Assembly: GCA_030425205.1 (NCBI GenBank)
Contig: JAUIAP010000025.1
Coordinates: forward strand, 1-64,000
DNA: 64,000 nt
Direction: 5' to 3'
From: Anaerolineae bacterium
GTDB taxonomy: Bacteria; Chloroflexota; Anaerolineae; Promineifilales; Promineifilaceae
The stretch's first letter is position 1; each line of letters opens with the position of its first letter. The notes beneath the pieces are model-generated. The model made no database searches. It was not told the origin of the DNA and was given only the letters and a program-made list of their open reading frames with translations. Below are positions 28,825 to 38,795 of this stretch, piece by piece. The translations under genes were made by a program, and so were the position numbers.

Positions 28825-29598
28825 ATGGGAACTACGCCGCTCCTTGCCGTCCAGAATGTCGAACTGAGTTTTGGCAGTAACAAAGTCCTTAAAAACGTTA
28901 GTTTTGACGTAGCAGAAGGGACAATACATTCAATCATAGGGCCAAACGGTGCGGGCAAAACATCGTTGCTTAACTGCATCAGTGCATTCTATCGGCCGCA
29001 ATCAGGCCAAATCCTCTACGACGGCACAACTGATCTTACGAAGACTCCTCCCACCCAAATCGCACCCATGGGTATCGCCCGTACATTTCAAAATATCGCA
29101 CTCTATACGGGTCTTAGCACCGTCGATAACTTAATGGCGGCGCGACACATTCACATGCGCCAAAATAGTTTGGCGAGCATGTTGTATTGGGGCGCAGCCA
29201 AACGGGAAGAGGTTGCACATCGCGCTGTCGTTGAGGAAATCATCGACTTTTTAGAGATCAACGCCATTCGCAAATCACTCGTCGGCGCACTGCCATATGG
29301 CTTGCGCAAGCGAATCGAACTCGGTCGCGCACTCGCACTAGAACCAAAATTAATGCTGCTTGATGAACCGATGGCGGGGATGAACTCTGAAGAGAAAGAG
29401 GATATTGCCCGCTTTATCTTGGACATTCACGAGCGACGCGGCATCACGATTGTGCTGATTGAGCACGATATGGGCGTGGTCATGGATATTTCCAACCATG
29501 TTACCGTGATTGATTTTGGCAAGAAAATTGGTGATGGAACACCCGATGCGGTGAGCGCGAGTCCAGAAGTAATTCGAGCATATTTAGGAGAAGAATGA
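28825..29598 (+). CDS. livG: Branched-chain-amino-acid-type ABC transporter ATPase
   Basis: 257 residues. Walker A GPNGAGKT (39-46), an LivG-type signature motif LPYGLRKRIELGRAL, Walker B LMLLDEP followed by MAGMN, and the switch His in LIEHDMGVVM are all seen. It energises uptake by LivHM together with LivF. First gene of a seven-gene operon to 38795. ATG 28825 has no recognisable ribosome site (ACACAATTTATG). As the operon includes two CoA ligases, the transported substrate may be an aromatic or fatty acid rather than leucine. Confidence 0.93.
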   Translation: MGTTPLLAVQNVELSFGSNKVLKNVSFDVAEGTIHSIIGPNGAGKTSLLNCISAFYRPQSGQILYDGTTDLTKTPPTQIAPMGIARTFQNIALYTGLSTVDNLMAARHIHMRQNSLASMLYWGAAKREEVAHRAVVEEIIDFLEINAIRKSLVGALPYGLRKRIELGRALALEPKLMLLDEPMAGMNSEEKEDIARFILDIHERRGITIVLIEHDMGVVMDISNHVTVIDFGKKIGDGTPDAVSASPEVIRAYLGEE

Positions 29599-29687: not shown

Positions 29688-31598
29688 ATGGCTGAGACAT
29701 TTGCACAGCATTACCTAGAGAAGGCGCAACGCTATGGAGATAGCAAAGTTGCCGTGCGCCAGAAAAAGCATGGGATTTGGCAGGAGTATTCTTGGGCGCA
29801 GTCGTTGGAGCAAGTCAAGCTTTTTGGGATGGGGATGTTGCAACTTGGATTGCTGCGCGGCGAGCAAGTTGCCGCCATTGGCGATAATGACAAGGAGTAT
29901 CTGTGGGGGTATCTAGGCGTTCACGCGATTGGTGGGGCGATGGTGGGGATGTACACCGACGCGAATCCGCAAGAGGCCGCCTATATCATTGACCATTCGG
30001 ACGCCAAATATGTGCTGGCGCAGGATCAAGAGCAGGTCGATAAGATGCTCGATATTCGTGCCGATATTCCGCAGGTTCGCAAAGTTATCTATTGGAATGA
30101 CAGCGGCCTGTGGGGATATGAAAACGATTGGCTGCTCTCCTATCAAGATGTCATTGAGATGGGGCGGGCATTGTTGGCAAAGGAGCCTGATCGTTTTGAG
30201 ACGGAGGTTAAGCTGGGATCGGCCGATGATCTCGCCCTAATCTGCTACACCTCTGGCACAACGGGACTGCCCAAAGGGGCGATGCTTTCGCATAAAAATA
30301 TGCTCGTTGCGGCACGCATGTTTGAAGAGGTCGATCCACGCTATGAAGACGATAATCACGTCAGCTTTTTGCCGATGGGCTGGATCGCCGAACATATTCT
30401 CGGAATCGCAAATCATTGTTACTATGGCATTATTATCAACTTCCCCGAGGAGCCTGAAACGGTACGTCAAAATCTGCGCGAAATTGCGCCAGAGGTCGTC
30501 GTCTATGGATCGCGTCTCTGGGATAATTTGGTGAGCATGATCCAAGTGCGCTTGCTCGATTCATCGTGGCTCAACAAGGCGATGTATAAGGCATGTATGC
30601 CAATTGGCAATCGCATGGCCGAAAAGCGCATGCGAGGCGCGGCGGCTGGTCCGGGTCTGGCGATTTCCTACAAGATAGCGGACATGCTCTTTTTTGGCCC
30701 ACTACGCGATCAACTTGGCATGTCAAATATCCGCACGGCGATTACTGGCGGGGCGGCACTTAGCCCCGATGTGATGCGCTTCTTCCATGCAATTGGGATC
30801 AATTTAAAGCAGGTCTACGGCATGACGGAAGTGGCAACGGCGGGGACGAGTCACTACACAGGCGACATCAAATTTGCCAGCGTGGGCAAGCCAGTGCCGG
30901 GTGCGGATGTGCGCATTGGCGAAAATGACGAAATTCAGCTCTCCTCCCCCACGCTCTTTATGGGCTATTACAAAGATCCTGAAAAAACGGCCGAAGATGT
31001 GCAAGTTGATCCAGATGGTCGCCGTTGGTTCTTGACGGGCGACGCGGGTTATATTGATGAAGATGGGCATTTAATCTACCTCGATCGCGTCAAGGATATG
31101 ATCGAACTGTCGAATGGCGCACGCTTTTCACCGCAGTTTATCGAAGGACGACTCAAGTTTAATCCGAATGTGCGCGAGGTGATGACCGTTGGTGATCCAA
31201 CGCGCGATTTTGTGACGGCACTGATCATTTTTGATTTTGACAACGTGGCACGCTGGGCAGAGAAGAAGGGGATCGGCTTTACAACCTTTGCCGATTTAAG
31301 CCAGAAACCGCCTGTTTTAGAGCTGGTCAAAGGAGCGGTCGAAGAGATCAATTCCAGCTTGCCACCCGATGGAAGGATTAAGGCGTTCGTCTTGATGCCC
31401 AAAGAGTTTGATGCGGATGAGGCAGAGATGACCCGCTCACGCAAGCTCAAACGGCAGGTGTTAGTTGAGAAATACAGCGAGATTATTGATGCACTGTATG
31501 GAAAATCGGCCGATCCCATCACCGTCCGCCAAGAAGTCACCTACCAAGATGGTTCAACTGGTTTTACAGAGAACACGCTGACTGTGGTACGTGTTTGA
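29688..31598 (+). CDS. Long-chain acyl-CoA synthetase / AMP-binding protein
   Basis: 636 residues, a FadD15-like adenylate-forming ligase that converts a carboxylic acid, ATP and CoA to acyl-CoA. The phosphate loop YTSGTTGLPKG lies at about 187-197. QVYGMTE, the ATP site TGDAGYID, and the hinge region DRVKDMIELSNG follow, all in the order usual for the family. Length fits the long-chain branch. It sits between livG and livH, so the imported acid is probably activated at once. Such ABC-plus-ligase operons are known for aromatic and fatty acids. Confidence 0.9.
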   Translation: MAETFAQHYLEKAQRYGDSKVAVRQKKHGIWQEYSWAQSLEQVKLFGMGMLQLGLLRGEQVAAIGDNDKEYLWGYLGVHAIGGAMVGMYTDANPQEAAYIIDHSDAKYVLAQDQEQVDKMLDIRADIPQVRKVIYWNDSGLWGYENDWLLSYQDVIEMGRALLAKEPDRFETEVKLGSADDLALICYTSGTTGLPKGAMLSHKNMLVAARMFEEVDPRYEDDNHVSFLPMGWIAEHILGIANHCYYGIIINFPEEPETVRQNLREIAPEVVVYGSRLWDNLVSMIQVRLLDSSWLNKAMYKACMPIGNRMAEKRMRGAAAGPGLAISYKIADMLFFGPLRDQLGMSNIRTAITGGAALSPDVMRFFHAIGINLKQVYGMTEVATAGTSHYTGDIKFASVGKPVPGADVRIGENDEIQLSSPTLFMGYYKDPEKTAEDVQVDPDGRRWFLTGDAGYIDEDGHLIYLDRVKDMIELSNGARFSPQFIEGRLKFNPNVREVMTVGDPTRDFVTALIIFDFDNVARWAEKKGIGFTTFADLSQKPPVLELVKGAVEEINSSLPPDGRIKAFVLMPKEFDADEAEMTRSRKLKRQVLVEKYSEIIDALYGKSADPITVRQEVTYQDGSTGFTENTLTVVRV

Positions 31599-31608
31599 TA
31601 GTTAAAAT

Positions 31609-32562
31609 ATGAATTGGATTTTAGTTCCACAACAGGTCATTACAGGTCTACTCAACGGCGGCACGCTCGCCCTGATCGCCTTGGGGATTGTGCTTATTTT
31701 TAAGTCGTCTGAGGTGTTCAACTTTGCACATGGGCACATGGTTATGGTGGGGGCGTATGTGACATGGTGGTTTGCTGGCGGGACGTCGCAGGATGGCGAA
31801 ATGCCTGTCGATCTGCCGTTTGCACTGGCCGTGATCGTCGGGATTGTGATTGCGATTTTGGTTGGATTGTTGATCGAGCGGATCGCACTTCGGCCGATGT
31901 CGGGTCAACCACTGCTCGCCATCATGCTGATGACGCTTGGTCTTGCCCAGCTATTTGAAGGGTTGGTCACCGTCCTTTTTGGCACACAGCCCAAAGGGTT
32001 TCCGTCCCCCATCACCTCAAACGAACCGATCACATTTGCCAATCCCTTTGCGCCAGAAGACGCGATGTTGATGTTCAAAACGATTCGCATCGACCCGACG
32101 CGCTTGGCAACCTTTATCGTCGCAATTGTCGTTGCCGTCGGATTCATCTTCTTTTTCAACTATACGAATATCGGACTCTCCATGCGGGCAACTTCGGAGA
32201 ATCACGAATTAGCCCGCAGTGTCGGCATCAAAGTGCCACGTGTCTTTGGCCTCTCATGGGCAATCGCCGGGATCGTGGCGACGCTGGGCGGCATTTTGTT
32301 GGCGATGCTCTCTGGAGTCAGCGTCAACTTGGCAACGGTCGCCCTGGTCGCATTTCCCGCCATTCTGCTCGGTGGCTTAGAATCACTCGGCGGTGCAATC
32401 GTTGGCGGGCTGGCGGTTGGCTTGGTGCAAGCACTCGTGCAGGCATCAAGTGTTGGAGCCATCCGCAACTCAAGCGACATTGCGCCCTACGTATTGTTAC
32501 TCATCGTGCTGGTCATTCGCCCCGAAGGGCTGTTTGGACAGAAGAGAATTGAAAGAATATAA
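31609..32562 (+). CDS. livH: Branched-chain-amino-acid-type ABC permease
   Basis: 317 residues with about eight membrane segments. Typical LivH features are QQVITGLLNGGTLALIALG at the start, FNFAHGHMVMVGAY, MRATSENHELARSVGI (the cytosolic coupling loop) and VLVIRPEGLFG at the end. Ten nt separate it from the ligase gene. Forms the channel with LivM. Confidence 0.93.
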   Translation: MNWILVPQQVITGLLNGGTLALIALGIVLIFKSSEVFNFAHGHMVMVGAYVTWWFAGGTSQDGEMPVDLPFALAVIVGIVIAILVGLLIERIALRPMSGQPLLAIMLMTLGLAQLFEGLVTVLFGTQPKGFPSPITSNEPITFANPFAPEDAMLMFKTIRIDPTRLATFIVAIVVAVGFIFFFNYTNIGLSMRATSENHELARSVGIKVPRVFGLSWAIAGIVATLGGILLAMLSGVSVNLATVALVAFPAILLGGLESLGGAIVGGLAVGLVQALVQASSVGAIRNSSDIAPYVLLLIVLVIRPEGLFGQKRIERI

Positions 32563-32634: not shown

Positions 32635-33699
32635 ATGGCCTCCATCCGCACCGCTGGCGATTTTGATCGCAGCTACGAACAAGATCAACGCATTATACGC
32701 AAGCCGCTGCACCTGATTATGACGGTGGTGGCGATTATTTTTGTCTACTTAATGCCGCGTATTTTTGAAAATTCCGCGCCAACGCTCAACCAGTTTGCCT
32801 ACACCATCATTGCCTTGCAAGGGTTAAACATCCTGACGGGTTATGCGGGACAAATTTCACTGGGTCAGGCGGCGTTCATGCTGGTAGGGGGCTATTCATC
32901 CGCGCTGTTGTCAACCCATTGGGGCATGCCAATTTGGATCACGGTGCCACTTTCCGCACTAACGACGGGAACGATTGGGCTGATTTTTGGCCTGCCTTCG
33001 CTACGTGTCAAAGGATTCTATTTGGCGATGGCGACATTAGCGGCCCAGTTCATCATTCCGTGGATCACGCGCAACGTGTGGAGTGACTATTTGGGTGGGA
33101 CGAGTGGCGCGATTCAAGTGCCAGCCGCCCATGTTTTCGGCATCAACATTTCAGAACCACGAGATTACTTCATTTTTTCGTTCACGTTTGTCATCTTATC
33201 AACGATTTTGACCAACAACATTTCGCGCACCAAATTGGGACGTGCATTTGTCTCTGTGCGAGACAATGACTTAGCGGCCGAACTGCTCGGCGTGAACCCG
33301 TTTAGCTATAAGTTGCGGGCATTTTTTATCGCGGCCGCATTGGCAGGTGTCGCGGGTGCGCTCAAGGCGCATTTTGAGCGTGGCATTGGGACGGAGTTTG
33401 GCTATAGTCTCAACGTTTCGATTATCTTTTTGGGCATGCTGGTGATTGGCGGAATGGGGACGCGGTTGGGTCCCTTCTTTGGGGCAATCACGATCATTTT
33501 GCTGGAGGATGTTGCGATTGCATTTGGTGAGTATTTAGCTGTACTATTCCCCAGTCAATCAGCACAGTTGTTGACTAGTTTTCGGCCGATATTTTTCGGC
33601 CTCGTGTTGATGATATTTCTGATTTTTGAACCGCGTGGATTGGCGCATCGCTGGAATTTGATTAAAGCTTCTTGGCGACTGCGACCCTTTGCACGCTAA
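32635..33699 (+). CDS. livM: Branched-chain-amino-acid-type ABC permease
   Basis: 354 residues with about nine membrane segments. LivM hallmarks are GYAGQISLGQAAFMLVGGYS, LRVKGFYLAMATLAAQF, FVSVRDNDLAAELLGVNP (coupling loop) and GMGTRLGPFFGA. It pairs with LivH. A ribosome site is missing because the repeat spacer abuts the ATG. Confidence 0.93.
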   Translation: MASIRTAGDFDRSYEQDQRIIRKPLHLIMTVVAIIFVYLMPRIFENSAPTLNQFAYTIIALQGLNILTGYAGQISLGQAAFMLVGGYSSALLSTHWGMPIWITVPLSALTTGTIGLIFGLPSLRVKGFYLAMATLAAQFIIPWITRNVWSDYLGGTSGAIQVPAAHVFGINISEPRDYFIFSFTFVILSTILTNNISRTKLGRAFVSVRDNDLAAELLGVNPFSYKLRAFFIAAALAGVAGALKAHFERGIGTEFGYSLNVSIIFLGMLVIGGMGTRLGPFFGAITIILLEDVAIAFGEYLAVLFPSQSAQLLTSFRPIFFGLVLMIFLIFEPRGLAHRWNLIKASWRLRPFAR

Positions 33700-33790: not shown

Positions 33791-36643
33791 ATGAAAAAAA
33801 GCAACTGGATTTTTTACCTACTTGCGCTCATGCTTGCCGTGTTTGTGGTGGCATGTGGGGGTCAGGAAGAAGCTGACCCGACGGCGGTTCCCGACGTAGT
33901 CGAACCGACCGATGTTCCAGAAGTTGTCGATGAACCGACGGAAGAACCGGAAGTGATCGATGAGCCAACCGAAGTGATGTCCGACTTTGAGACAAACATC
34001 GTCGTTTGGGCGGATGAACTGCTATCACCTGTCGTCAACGAAATCAAAGTCGATTTTGAACAAGAGTATGGTATCGGCCTCATCGTTGAGAACGTTACCG
34101 ACCGCTATGACCAATTCCCTGTTGCAGCAGCGGCAGGCGAAGGGCCAGACATCATTCTGTTGGCACATGACCGCATCGGTGGTTACTATGACAGCGGATT
34201 GCTCGCAACGATTGATCTTGCGGGTCGTGAAGACGAATTTGCCTCTGCGGCAATTGATGCCTTTACGTACAATGGCGACTTGGTTGGCTTGCCCTATGCA
34301 ACTGAAAACCTCGCCTTCTTCTACAATGCCGACCTCGTGGATGCGCCTCCCGCAACATGGGAAGAGGCTATGGAGATTGGTGCGGCGTTAGTTGACAGCG
34401 GCGATGCAACCTACGCAATTGCCCTGACTGGCACGACCTATGACTCATTCCCACTGCATACTGCATTCGGAGGCTATGTCTTCGGCAATGACGGCAGCGG
34501 CTATGATCCGAACGATGTTGGGATTGACAGCAGCGGCATGATTGCAGCCGGCGACTTTATCCAAGAGAATGTTGAAGCTGGATTGATCAGCGATAGCACC
34601 GATTGGGATACCGCACATCTGCAATTTGAGACGGGTGAGATTCCCTTCTTGATGGCGGGACCATGGGCATTGGAGCGTCTCCGTGACTCAGGTGTAAACT
34701 ATGTTGTTGCCGACTTCCCAGTGGGGACGCAACAAGGTGAATCATTCTTGGGCGTGCAAGGTTGGTCTGTCAACGCACTGAGCGATAATGTCCTCTTAGC
34801 ACAGACCATTTTGACCGAATATTTTGCAACCGAAGATGTCATGCGTCAGTTCACCGAATTGACAAACCGCCCATCTGCTTACATTTCAACGCCAAATCCC
34901 GATCCCGATTTGGTCGTGTTTGGTGACGTTGCCGTTGGTGGCTTGCCAATGCCTGCGATTCCAGAGATGGGTTCGATTTGGGGTAGCTGGGGTGATGCGT
35001 TTGCACTCATCATCAACGGTGAGCAATCTGCTTCTGACGCATTGACCAACGCTGGCGCACAAATCCGTGACCTAATTGGTGGTTCAATGGATGGTGCAAT
35101 CGTCGCTGTAGGTTCATTCCAAGCAGCGGCTGGCTGTGAAGGCGATTGGGACCCAGCTTGTAATGTGACCCGCCTGAGCGACAACGGTGATGGCACATAT
35201 AGCGGCACGTTCAATTTGCCAGCAGGCGAATATGAAGGGAAAGTCGCCTTTGATGGTGGCTGGACAGAGAACTACGGTTTGGATGGTGCATTGGACGGCG
35301 ACAACATTCCATTTACGGTTGAAGCTGATGGTCCCGTCACAATTACGTTCGATAGTGAAACGAATTTGACGACGTTTGAAGCTGGCGAAGCGATGATGGA
35401 CGACGATGACGCCATGATGGACGACGGCATGATGATGGGCGGCGACTGTAACGGCGTTGATGCAACGGGCGAAGAGTTGGTCATCTATCAGCAAGCTGGT
35501 CGTGAAGGACCGCTAGCTGCCATTCTTGGCGACGGTTTTGCCTTTGCAACAGAAGATGCCGTCAGCTACATCAATGAAAACGGTGGCGTTTGTGGGGCTG
35601 AATTGGTCGTTGAGTTCTGCGAAACGGGCTACAACCCAGAGAATGAAATCGCTTGCTATAACGAGACACGCACGGCTGACCCTGCGCCAATCGTTATCCT
35701 CAGCTACGGTTCGGGTGCAACGATTGCACTGAAAGATCGCGTCGTGGAAGATGAAATTGTCCACATGGTCGCTGGCTTGGAAGCGGAGGCACTCTATAAC
35801 CCAGCCGATGGTTACACGATTGCTGCAATTCCAATCTACACCGATCAGTTTGGTGGCTTCTTGCAATTTGTTGCCGATAACTGGGACGATATCAAGCCAG
35901 AAGGTGCTGGTGACGACATCGTTGTTGGTGTTGTTGGCTGGGCAAACGCTTTTGGTGCAGGTGCAAATACACCTGAAACAGAAGCATTTGCGGAAGAGTT
36001 GGGTATCACATTGTTGCCACTAGAGCAGCAAGAGATCTCACCTGAAGCGGATGTGTCAGGCGTGTTGCAGAACCTTGTTCTCGGTGGCGCGAATGTCATC
36101 TATGCACAGAACTTGTCGTTCGGTGCAACGCAGGTGATTGGCACATTGCGTGCATTGGGTGCATGGGATTCGGTTATCGTCGGTGGTGTCAACTGGACAT
36201 TCAACACTGATGTGTTGGCCTTTTTGGGCGAAAATCAAGCGGCTGCCAATGGTTACTACGGTGTCTTCCCATACTTGTGGTACAACGACGCAGGTAACCC
36301 GACAGTTGATCTCGCAACCCAATTTGCGGAAGAGAATGATCGTGATGCAAATGCAGGTGGTGTGAGCTACCTCACCAGCATCAGCACCTTCCTTTTGCTC
36401 GACCAGATGCTTGAGGATGCAATCGGCCGAAATGGGTTTGAGAACCTAACTGGCGCAACGTTGCTCGACTCCTTGGATGAAACGGGGACATACAGCGACG
36501 GTGTTTTGACGGTTGATGTCCGCGATGGCCGCCGCGCACCCAGCATGGCGCAAATCCGTCAATTCCAATTCAACGGTGAGTCGATTGACTTTACAGTTGT
36601 TGAGGATTGGTTCGAGTTGCCTGACTTGCGTCCGGGACAGTAG
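33791..36643 (+). CDS. Fused binding protein: MalE-type + X25-like + LivJ-type
   Basis: 950 residues, an exported lipoprotein with Cys22 in the lipobox VVAC, then a Pro/Glu/Thr/Val linker (23-62). Residues about 66-430 match family-1 sugar-binding proteins (TNIVVWADELLSP, GEGPDIILLAHDRIGGY, GLPYATENLAFFYN, FLMAGPWALERL). Residues about 436-530 match the pullulanase X25-type carbohydrate module (CEGDWDPACNVTRLSDNGDG, FNLPAGEYEGKVAFDGGWTE). A Met/Asp linker (AMMDDDDAMMDDGMMMGG) follows. Residues about 560-950 match LivJ-type proteins (GREGPLAAILGDGF, FLQFVADNW). Usual LivJ length is near 400. GGAG precedes ATG. The operon position fits the LivJ half; no malF/malG genes are nearby. Gene fusion at the linker or an assembly join could explain it. 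Confidence 0.88.
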   Translation: MKKSNWIFYLLALMLAVFVVACGGQEEADPTAVPDVVEPTDVPEVVDEPTEEPEVIDEPTEVMSDFETNIVVWADELLSPVVNEIKVDFEQEYGIGLIVENVTDRYDQFPVAAAAGEGPDIILLAHDRIGGYYDSGLLATIDLAGREDEFASAAIDAFTYNGDLVGLPYATENLAFFYNADLVDAPPATWEEAMEIGAALVDSGDATYAIALTGTTYDSFPLHTAFGGYVFGNDGSGYDPNDVGIDSSGMIAAGDFIQENVEAGLISDSTDWDTAHLQFETGEIPFLMAGPWALERLRDSGVNYVVADFPVGTQQGESFLGVQGWSVNALSDNVLLAQTILTEYFATEDVMRQFTELTNRPSAYISTPNPDPDLVVFGDVAVGGLPMPAIPEMGSIWGSWGDAFALIINGEQSASDALTNAGAQIRDLIGGSMDGAIVAVGSFQAAAGCEGDWDPACNVTRLSDNGDGTYSGTFNLPAGEYEGKVAFDGGWTENYGLDGALDGDNIPFTVEADGPVTITFDSETNLTTFEAGEAMMDDDDAMMDDGMMMGGDCNGVDATGEELVIYQQAGREGPLAAILGDGFAFATEDAVSYINENGGVCGAELVVEFCETGYNPENEIACYNETRTADPAPIVILSYGSGATIALKDRVVEDEIVHMVAGLEAEALYNPADGYTIAAIPIYTDQFGGFLQFVADNWDDIKPEGAGDDIVVGVVGWANAFGAGANTPETEAFAEELGITLLPLEQQEISPEADVSGVLQNLVLGGANVIYAQNLSFGATQVIGTLRALGAWDSVIVGGVNWTFNTDVLAFLGENQAAANGYYGVFPYLWYNDAGNPTVDLATQFAEENDRDANAGGVSYLTSISTFLLLDQMLEDAIGRNGFENLTGATLLDSLDETGTYSDGVLTVDVRDGRRAPSMAQIRQFQFNGESIDFTVVEDWFELPDLRPGQ

Positions 36644-36737
36644 TTCGTAAACAGTAGGCAGTAAACAGTAGGCTGTAGACAGTGGACAGATTTCTGTTCA
36701 CTGTCTACTGACCACAGTTCACTGTATACATTCACCA
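36644..36737 (+). repeat. Repeat-armed hairpin spacer before livF
   Basis: Left arm 36647-36689 is four or so tandem variants of a 10-12-nt unit (GTAAACAGTAGGCA, GTAAACAGTAGGCT, GTAGACAGTG, GACAG). Right arm 36694-36729 is their degenerate complement (CTGTTCACTGTCTACTGACC, ACAGTTCACTGTATAC). The 94-nt gap runs to the livF ATG with no ribosome site. The unit resembles that at 41185-41253. Confidence 0.8.
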
Positions 36738-37535
36738 ATGCTCAAGGTAAACAATATCGAAGTCGTCTATAGCGATGTGATTCTCGTGCTGCGCGGTGTG
36801 ACGCTTGAAGTAGGAGATGGCAAAATCGTCTCATTGCTGGGCGCAAACGGCGCAGGGAAATCGACGACGCTGAAGGCAATCTCTGGCTTGTTACACTCTC
36901 AACAAGGAGAGGTGACACGCGGTAATGTGGAGTTTGATGGTCAGCAGATCGACAAACTCACACCAGACGAGATTGTTCGCTTGGGCATTGTGCAGGTATT
37001 AGAGGGGCGACCCCTGTTTGGGCATTTGACGGTTGAGGAAAATCTGCGCACGGGCGCACTGTTTCGCGGGGCATCTAATGCCACAGTCAAGAGCGATTTG
37101 GAGCAGGTCTACCACTTTTTCCCGCGTCTACTCGACTTCCGCGACCGCACAAGTGGTTATCTCTCTGGTGGTGAACAGCAGATGGTGGTAATCGGTCGCG
37201 CATTGATGGCAAAGCCCAAATTAATGCTGCTCGACGAACCATCGCTCGGTCTTGCCCCACTCTTGGTGCAGGATATTTTCTCGATTATCAAACAGATTAA
37301 CGAAGAAGCGGGTGTCTCCATCCTGCTCGTCGAGCAAAATGCGAACATCGCACTGCGGACGGCGACAGATGCCTATGTGATGGAGAACGGGCGCATTGTG
37401 TTGGATGGGACAGCCGCAGAACTTTCTAAAAACGCCGACATCAAAGAATTTTATCTCGGCATGGGCGCGGGCGGTGAGCGCAAGAGCTACCGCGATATAA
37501 AACATTATAAACGCCGCAAGCGGTGGGTAGGATAG
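36738..37535 (+). CDS. livF: Branched-chain-amino-acid-type ABC transporter ATPase
   Basis: 265 residues. Walker A GANGAGKS at 35-42, signature LSGGEQQMVVIGRAL, Walker B LMLLDEPSLGLAP, switch His replaced by Gln in LVEQNANIAL as is normal for LivF. It partners LivG. The C-terminus has an extra basic tail (KSYRDIKHYKRRKRWVG) beyond the usual LivF end. A strong terminator lies between it and the PaaK-like gene. Confidence 0.93.
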   Translation: MLKVNNIEVVYSDVILVLRGVTLEVGDGKIVSLLGANGAGKSTTLKAISGLLHSQQGEVTRGNVEFDGQQIDKLTPDEIVRLGIVQVLEGRPLFGHLTVEENLRTGALFRGASNATVKSDLEQVYHFFPRLLDFRDRTSGYLSGGEQQMVVIGRALMAKPKLMLLDEPSLGLAPLLVQDIFSIIKQINEEAGVSILLVEQNANIALRTATDAYVMENGRIVLDGTAAELSKNADIKEFYLGMGAGGERKSYRDIKHYKRRKRWVG

Positions 37536-37595: not shown

Positions 37596-38795
37596 ATGAC
37601 AATCAATGAACGCCTTCAAAAACAGATTCAACATGCATACGACAATGCGCCAGCGTTTCGAGAGCGGATGGATTCGGCCGAACTGACCCCTTCCCACATC
37701 CAATCCACCGCCGATTTGGAAAAGTTGCCAGTTATCCCGAAGGATGATGTGGTACAGATGCAGCAAGAAAACCCACCATTTGGCGGACTGCTCGCCGTCC
37801 CGCTTGAGGAACTCAGCCACATCTATTTTTCGCCGGGCCCCCTCTATGAACCAGATGCAGGTAGCGATGACTTTGCTGATGATGCGGTCGGCCACGTCTT
37901 TACCGAAGCGGGTTTTGTGGCAGGCGACATCGTTTTGAACACGCTCTCATACCATCTCGTTCCCGCAGGCATGATGTTGGATCGTGGATTGACGGCGATT
38001 GGTTGCACCGTTATTCCCGGCGGTGTTGGCAATAGTGATCTGCAACTCAAGATGATGCGCGATTTAGGTGTGACGGGTTACGCTGGGACACCCAGCTTTT
38101 TGGCCGCACTAATCGAGAAGGCAGAAGGGATGGGCTTAGACTTCAAGCGCGATTTCAAGGTGACAAAGGCGTTCGTTTCGGCCGAACCGCTCGCCGCATC
38201 GCTGCGTCAAAAACTGGTTGATGAGTACGGCATTTCCGTTGCTAATGGGTATGCAACGGCCGAATTAGGTTTGCTAGCACTCGATTGTGAAGGCAAAATG
38301 CAGATGAAGTTGATGCCTGAACCGATAGTAGAAATTGTTGATTCTGATACGGGAAAATGCGTTGGAGCGGGGGAAGTTGGCGAAGTAGTTGTGACAACGT
38401 TCAATCGCGCTTATCCGTTGATCCGCTTTGGTACGGGGGACATGGCGATTAACATTGACCCTGCGCCGGGCAAGAGTAAACAGGCGGAGCGGGCCATTAC
38501 GCTGGTTGGCCGCAAAGGGGAGGCGGTCAAGGTGCGCGGCATGTTTGTCCATCCTAACCAGTTACGCTTTATCACTGGTCAACTATTGCAAACTGGTGCC
38601 GTACAGGGAATTGTCACGCGTCCTGAAAATCGGGATATGCTGACTGTGCGCGTCGTCTCAGATAAAACAGAGATGGAAGAAGCGTTCAAAGGGGCGTTGC
38701 AGCAAGTTATTCGTGTGAAAGTGGACTCGGTCGAATTTGTGGATGCGCTACCAGATGGAGCCGCGGGGATGGTTGATGAACGCAGTTGGGATTAG
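37596..38795 (+). CDS. Phenylacetate-CoA ligase family protein
   Basis: 399 residues, a PaaK-like adenylate-forming enzyme. It has the PaaK-type N-terminus (IQHAYDNAPAFRERM), ANGYATAELG in the acyl-site position, FGTGDMA for ATP, and GRKGEAVKVRGMFVHPNQL at the hinge to the C-terminal domain. The phosphate-loop region SPGPLYEP is shorter and less Ser/Thr-rich than in FadD, as in PaaK. It is slightly shorter than typical PaaK. Expected to activate an aryl or related acid. AGGAG precedes ATG by about 11 nt. Confidence 0.88.
   Translation: MTINERLQKQIQHAYDNAPAFRERMDSAELTPSHIQSTADLEKLPVIPKDDVVQMQQENPPFGGLLAVPLEELSHIYFSPGPLYEPDAGSDDFADDAVGHVFTEAGFVAGDIVLNTLSYHLVPAGMMLDRGLTAIGCTVIPGGVGNSDLQLKMMRDLGVTGYAGTPSFLAALIEKAEGMGLDFKRDFKVTKAFVSAEPLAASLRQKLVDEYGISVANGYATAELGLLALDCEGKMQMKLMPEPIVEIVDSDTGKCVGAGEVGEVVVTTFNRAYPLIRFGTGDMAINIDPAPGKSKQAERAITLVGRKGEAVKVRGMFVHPNQLRFITGQLLQTGAVQGIVTRPENRDMLTVRVVSDKTEMEEAFKGALQQVIRVKVDSVEFVDALPDGAAGMVDERSWD

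Follow-up and report, generated by a model that had tools for sequence, protein, structure and literature searches.

The fused gene and its operon

The window, which is the whole 64,000-nucleotide stretch of an Anaerolineae contig that was analysed, carries an intact operon on its forward strand in the order livG-fadD-livH-livM-[SBP]-livF-paaK, where the slot for the binding protein (SBP) is occupied by a fused gene (33791-36643). Upstream lie a livG-type ATPase gene (28825-29598; ABC_tran and BCA_ABC_TP_C), a fadD-like gene for an AMP-forming CoA ligase (29688-31598; AMP-binding, 1.1e-59) and the permease genes livH (31609-32562) and livM (32635-33699), both matching BPD_transp_2. Downstream lie a livF-type ATPase gene (36738-37535; ABC_tran) and a paaK-like CoA ligase gene (37596-38795; AMP-binding). 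The gap between the fused gene and livF holds a strong inverted-repeat hairpin (36653-36727, forward strand; MFE -39.1 kcal/mol, z -5.15 for 36640-36737), which could set the ratio of SBP to ATPase or could be a repeat element. The first-pass annotation had placed the fused gene inside a livG-H-M-F operon with no malF or malG nearby. Both statements hold: livG, livH, livM and livF are present together with two AMP-ligases, and Pfam detected no malF/malG-type gene among the operon genes scanned, the operon permeases being of the BPD_transp_2 type. Two malF-malG-type pairs occur elsewhere in the genome, adjoining the MalE paralogues C88 and C11.

The fused frame begins with ATG and encodes 950 residues with zero internal stops. 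A signal peptide (33791-33856) ends in the lipobox VVAC (Cys22) and is followed by an acidic leader linker (aa 23-66; 33857-33988), within which identity to the paralogue C88 falls. Next come a MalE-type family-1 binding domain (aa 67-432; 33989-35086), whose core is 88% identical to C88 at the amino acid level, and an X25 starch-binding-type module (aa 437-525; 35099-35365). The end of X25 and a low-complexity Met/Asp linker (aa 526-556; 35366-35458, linker core about 35381-35450) lead into a LivJ-type binding domain (aa 557-950; 35459-36640). Three Pfam matches above the gathering cut-offs support this layout: SBP_bac_8 (aa 87-362, 1.9e-33), X25_BaPul_like (PF22058, aa 437-525, 3.2e-27) and Peripla_BP_6 (aa 572-912, 1e-21). 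The reading frame and these matches confirm the earlier description of one uninterrupted chain with two SBP classes and an X25 module; it is also correct that the usual permeases of the two classes belong to different systems. Pfam detected neither a permease domain nor a signalling domain within the chain, livH and livM being separate genes.

Scores for all three modules are well above the Pfam cut-offs: SBP_bac_8 and SBP_bac_1 match the MalE half with 116.9 and 87.3 bits (cut-offs 27 and 26), PF22058 matches the X25 module with 94.9 bits (cut-off 27), and Peripla_BP_6 matches the LivJ half with 78.4 bits (cut-off 31.7). The narrower NCBIfam models are not reached, with 239 of 291 bits for the MalE equivalog (NF007011) and 13.8 of 477 bits for the LivJ subfamily (PRK15404), which makes “MalE-type” and “LivJ-type” the appropriate names. 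Two Trp residues of the X25 module can be seen by eye, in GDWDPAC and GGWTENYG. Modelled alone, the LivJ-type domain has a pLDDT of 94, versus 36 for a single-sequence AlphaFold model of the full 950-residue chain. Structures that match the LivJ-type model include 3lkb (Z 44.1, rmsd 2.2, 368 residues aligned), 4n03 (Z 39.6) and 4evs (Z 35.8), whose annotations include amino-acid-, aromatic- and fatty-acid-type SBPs. DNA resembling the Met/Asp linker recurs in other lipoproteins of the same genome, both at the leader and between fasciclin domains. One fasciclin-repeat lipoprotein (L218 718-3024; G000:C98:535511-536329) has the same Met/Asp linker DNA between its repeats.

The same slot in relatives

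Comparison of relatives' loci revealed the same gene order family-wide, with an SBP gene in the same slot. In many relatives a plain LivJ stands there, and the linker before it is long and either acidic or coiled. The first-pass annotation would have taken two separate genes in relatives as a refutation; each relative instead has one gene, plain or fused. In a genome of another genus (G006) the slot holds MalE-LivJ, split over two contig ends: livG-fadD-livH-livM and the N-terminal part of MalE end contig C30, and the C-terminal part of MalE with LivJ and livF begins contig C108. In genus g22, the slot holds XylF-LivJ in six genomes, with some copies cut by contig ends. LivK-LivJ is found in G003 and fasciclin-LivJ in G012 (L100 2558-4441). 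In G073 and G075, XylF is followed by a second domain that is cut off, and its first residues suggest a BMP/PnrA-type receptor. The exact MalE-X25-LivJ architecture was seen once, in the single assembly of its species; the congener G001 is without this livM.

In a tree of LivJ domains, every LivJ fused to another SBP falls in one clade of 11 members (support 99/98), of which a single member, from G008, is plain. None of the 20 remaining members has a second SBP (Fisher 2.5e-7, uncorrected for shared ancestry). A LivJ of the same clade also occurs in G074 behind two TauA-type domains, in a frame of 1131 aa (L095 4707-8099; G074:C57). It is flanked by a divergent regulator and by TauB/TauC-type and Xsc-like genes (regulator and Xsc recognised by eye), and the locus is a taurine-type operon. 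A set of 50 named loci drawn from GTDB genomes covers Promineifilum, Ardenticatenaceae, Caldilineaceae and unplaced Anaerolineae MAGs; in it, fused forms outside the SBP-fused group are confined to MAG-116. The kinship of these loci points to an Anaerolineae (Chloroflexota) lineage as the source of the window.

MAG-116 has a TauA-LivK-SBP_bac_3-LivJ frame of 1444 aa (L171 1854-6185) and a LivK-SBP_bac_3-LivJ frame of 1149 aa (L172 2739-6185). Starting at the LivK border the two share 99.7% identity, and the DNA upstream differs exactly at the domain border. Strain variants, a duplication or misassembly may account for the difference. The four-domain frame was set aside, since two contigs carry the gene and diverge upstream at a domain border.

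Origin of the front module

Evidence on the source of the MalE half came from a tree of MalE domains, in which the window's domain groups with those of its own genome (G000), C88 (MalE-X25) and C11 (MalE), with support of 100/100. C88 and C11 are each followed by two MalF/MalG-type permease genes. The branch of the window's domain measures 0.062, versus 0.04 and 0.1 for the C88 and C11 copies. Compared with C88, the MalE core has 88% identity with dN 0.07 and dS 1.4, and dN/dS is about 0.05 for the MalE half and 0.14 for X25. The kinship, the low dN/dS and the similar branch length together indicate that the window's MalE is an old in-lineage copy, held under constraint and evolving at a normal rate. 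Results from a mixed full-length alignment (A2), in which the halves looked misaligned, were excluded.

The first-pass annotation suggested that the fusion arose by recombination between low-complexity linkers. This proposal has gained support, directly from recent events in two relatives. G006 has fused MalE fragments with 100% amino acid identity to the MalE of that genome's own mal operon, and the DNA identity ends within Glu-rich linkers on both sides, with a different leader. Given these boundaries and the different leader, what entered the linker of the liv gene was a cassette made up of the MalE core. In G062, the fused XylF is 97% identical in nucleotides to the native XylF of the same genome, with third-position identity of 0.93, versus only 0.65-0.68 to the fused XylF of sister species. 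The shared block starts in a low-complexity linker and stops at the domain end. A similar disparity is seen in G059, where third-position identity is 0.88 to the genome's own native XylF versus 0.48 to the sister species' fused XylF. The pattern in G062 and G059 amounts to gene conversion or repeated cassette exchange. In the window the fusion boundaries also lie at linkers, and the age of the junction prevents exact mapping. These boundaries, together with the similar Met/Asp DNA in other lipoproteins, suggest that the older fusion formed by the same linker mechanism.

A single ancestral MalE-LivJ fusion was considered and rejected for the MalE halves: that of the window joins the paralogues of its own genome, and the fragments in G006 are 100% identical to their own mal-operon copy. 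The linker context may have a deeper common origin, with later swaps of modules.

Function of the fused chain

The best reading of the fused gene, and on balance a probable one, is that it encodes one lipid-anchored, two-headed lipoprotein receptor with independent heads. The C-terminal LivJ head would be the SBP of its own operon's LivHMGF importer, with a ligand of the amino-acid, aromatic or fatty-acid type. The N-terminal MalE-X25 head would retain binding of alpha-glucan or maltodextrin, and would probably deliver sugar in trans to MalF-MalG permeases encoded elsewhere. The two heads would share one anchor and act independently on flexible linkers. Such a receptor would have originated when a MalE-X25 cassette of the genome's own mal-operon lineage was placed, by recombination in acidic linkers, in the linker before LivJ. 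Architecture, synteny, the kinship and normal rate of MalE, and linker cassette insertion in two relatives are established for the window and its relatives; from sequence, we infer sugar binding by the MalE head, its docking on MalFG, and docking of LivJ on LivHM.

The ligand residues of the MalE half are consistent with retained binding. Of the contact positions of E. coli MalE (D65, R66, E111, Y155, W230, W340 and W62), the first six are kept in the alignment and W62 is replaced by Leu. Its clustering with mal-operon MalEs, its normal evolutionary rate and these kept residues make it probable that the MalE half still functions as a receptor. The low dN/dS reflects constraint on the fold and says nothing about docking on MalFG. 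X25-type modules contribute to starch binding in other proteins, and single X25 modules of one starch-binding protein did not bind alone (PMC9112005). For the other half, the LivJ of the fused chain is the one close LivJ found in the genome, so it is very probably the SBP of LivHMGF and appears to be the sole one for that permease. The CoA ligases in the operon make an aromatic or fatty acid as likely a ligand as an amino acid.

The strongest alternative is that the N-terminal SBP is a mere anchor or spacer that raises LivJ off the membrane, in which case any stable exported domain would suffice and its ligand binding would be irrelevant. The relatives lend this idea some weight: modules of unrelated ligand classes, even fasciclin, occupy the one slot and fit a spacer role too, where relatives have a plain LivJ a long acidic or coiled linker takes the position of the front module, and the operon itself is without a malFG-type gene. 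However, nearly all front modules are SBPs, and constraint on the MalE half and X25, with kept sugar contacts, counts against a spacer. A further point comes from G016, whose xylG-xylH locus (L159 1-3651; G016:C203) has an unrelated peptidase-like frame upstream where XylF is expected. Searches of that genome found a single XylF, which is fused ahead of MalE on C480; the MAG is 92% complete, so a stand-alone XylF could be unassembled. G016 thus seems to depend on its fused XylF, and is the best natural hint of a fused head serving a permease encoded elsewhere. Tandem substrate-binding domains of GlnPQ, moreover, bind independently (PMC8025302). The hint from G016, the kept sugar contacts and the independence of the GlnPQ domains favour the two-headed receptor, leaving the spacer a possible but less likely account.

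A second alternative is that the chain is a precursor cleaved in vivo at the Met/Asp linker, freeing LivJ from an anchored MalE-X25, so that the fusion would serve mainly for co-expression and co-export of two SBPs. The long, exposed low-complexity linker is in its favour. However, no known cleavage motif was recognised in the chain, and the freed LivJ would have no anchor in a cell that presumably has a single membrane; cleavage is improbable.

The suggestion of a sensor dedicated to two ligands, or of a receptor that captures amino or aromatic acids in glycosylated form, draws on the presence of both ligand classes in one chain. It fares worse still, and we consider it very unlikely. The module in front is exchangeable among relatives (MalE, XylF, LivK or fasciclin), which means that it is not tailored to what LivJ binds, and the chain lacks a signalling domain. 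From the earlier two-ligand idea, two independent heads survive; a combined sensor and a receptor for glycosylated compounds are not supported.

An assembly chimera that joined a LivJ gene to a MalE-X25 gene can be given almost no credence. The MAG does have 108 contigs and 7.7% contamination, in some relatives contigs end within SBP repeats, and one relative has two contigs that share a fused gene and differ upstream of it. But liv genes flank the window's fused gene on both sides, so that a chimera would require two jumps, and base composition is constant across both SBP halves. Exact matches to the paralogues and linker-bearing genes that were compared are no longer than 29 nt, in a stretch inside MalE, and reach 18 nt at the linker. 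Fusions of several classes occupy the slot in genomes assembled independently of one another, and MalE-LivJ recurs there in another genus, although in that case the gene is divided between two contig ends.

Comparison with known systems

In standard teaching an importer has a single SBP, or tandem SBP domains that serve it alone. Searches of an open-access library turned up no fusion that joins different SBP classes, the closest system being GlnPQ of Lactococcus lactis, in which two substrate-binding domains of different specificity share one chain with a flexible linker and bind independently (PMC8025302). The GlnPQ domains are alike in kind, form one protein with the permease and both belong to the same importer. 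In contrast, the fused protein joins SBPs of different classes, is free of permease, has a carbohydrate-binding module between the heads, and has the usual permease of one head encoded elsewhere. Its N-terminal half has the same domain order as the family's mal-operon MalE-X25 lipoproteins (e.g. L058, L059, L060), which are encoded by stand-alone genes followed by MalF/MalG-type permease genes and are without LivJ. The C-terminal half has the same slot, the same LivJ domain and an acidic linker after the lipobox in common with the plain LivJ of the Anaerolineae livG-fadD-livHM-SBP-livF-paaK operon, which lacks a second SBP in front. Laboratory MBP fusions, of which there are many PDB entries, likewise place a C-terminal passenger behind MalE. 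Unlike these, the fused chain is natural and lipid-anchored, and its passenger is another receptor with X25 between.

A chain that joins receptors of different importers, with a front module that varies among close relatives, is a natural experiment. It raises two questions: can SBPs act as multivalent antennae, and do SBPs still dock once they are fused? It also shows SBP domains recombining between operons via linkers.

Receptor tandems elsewhere in the family

Tandems of one SBP class are common in this family. The window's own genome has three XylF-type domains in a single 1116-aa frame (L137 8409-11756; G000:C108), and the congener has four in a single 1452-aa frame (L136 7340-11695; G001:C21). 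Both are directly followed by xylG/xylH-type ABC ATPase and permease genes (named by homology and by eye), and the repeats of the two frames cluster by genome. Two LivJ domains in tandem occur on C20. Doubles make up six of the 27 family-1 SBP frames in the window's genome (search with E up to 1e-8), versus one of 107 in eight genomes from other families of the class (P 2.5e-4). Among the matches listed, Peripla_BP_6 falls in frames of at least 700 aa in about 45 of ~150 cases for the family versus about 9 of ~150 for a class sample, a comparison that is indicative only. The fusion is real, and belongs to a wider tendency of the lineage to link receptor domains in series.

A broader proposal, which we put forward tentatively and hold at somewhat less than even chances, is that the family shuffles SBP cassettes between operons via shared acidic linkers, giving combinatorial polyreceptor lipoproteins whose two to four heads, alike or unlike in class, would each serve a permease of their own in trans. 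If this is true, one anchor would feed several importers. Annotation and short-read assembly of repeated SBP domains will often split or misname such genes.

Two further loci were noted. G074 has a 1191-aa frame with three Peripla_BP_6 domains (L138; G074:C306). In G061, a native tandem XylF gene is full of frameshifts next to intact xylG/xylH-type neighbours (L160 6470-8690; G061:C237); sequencing error or decay may explain the frameshifts.
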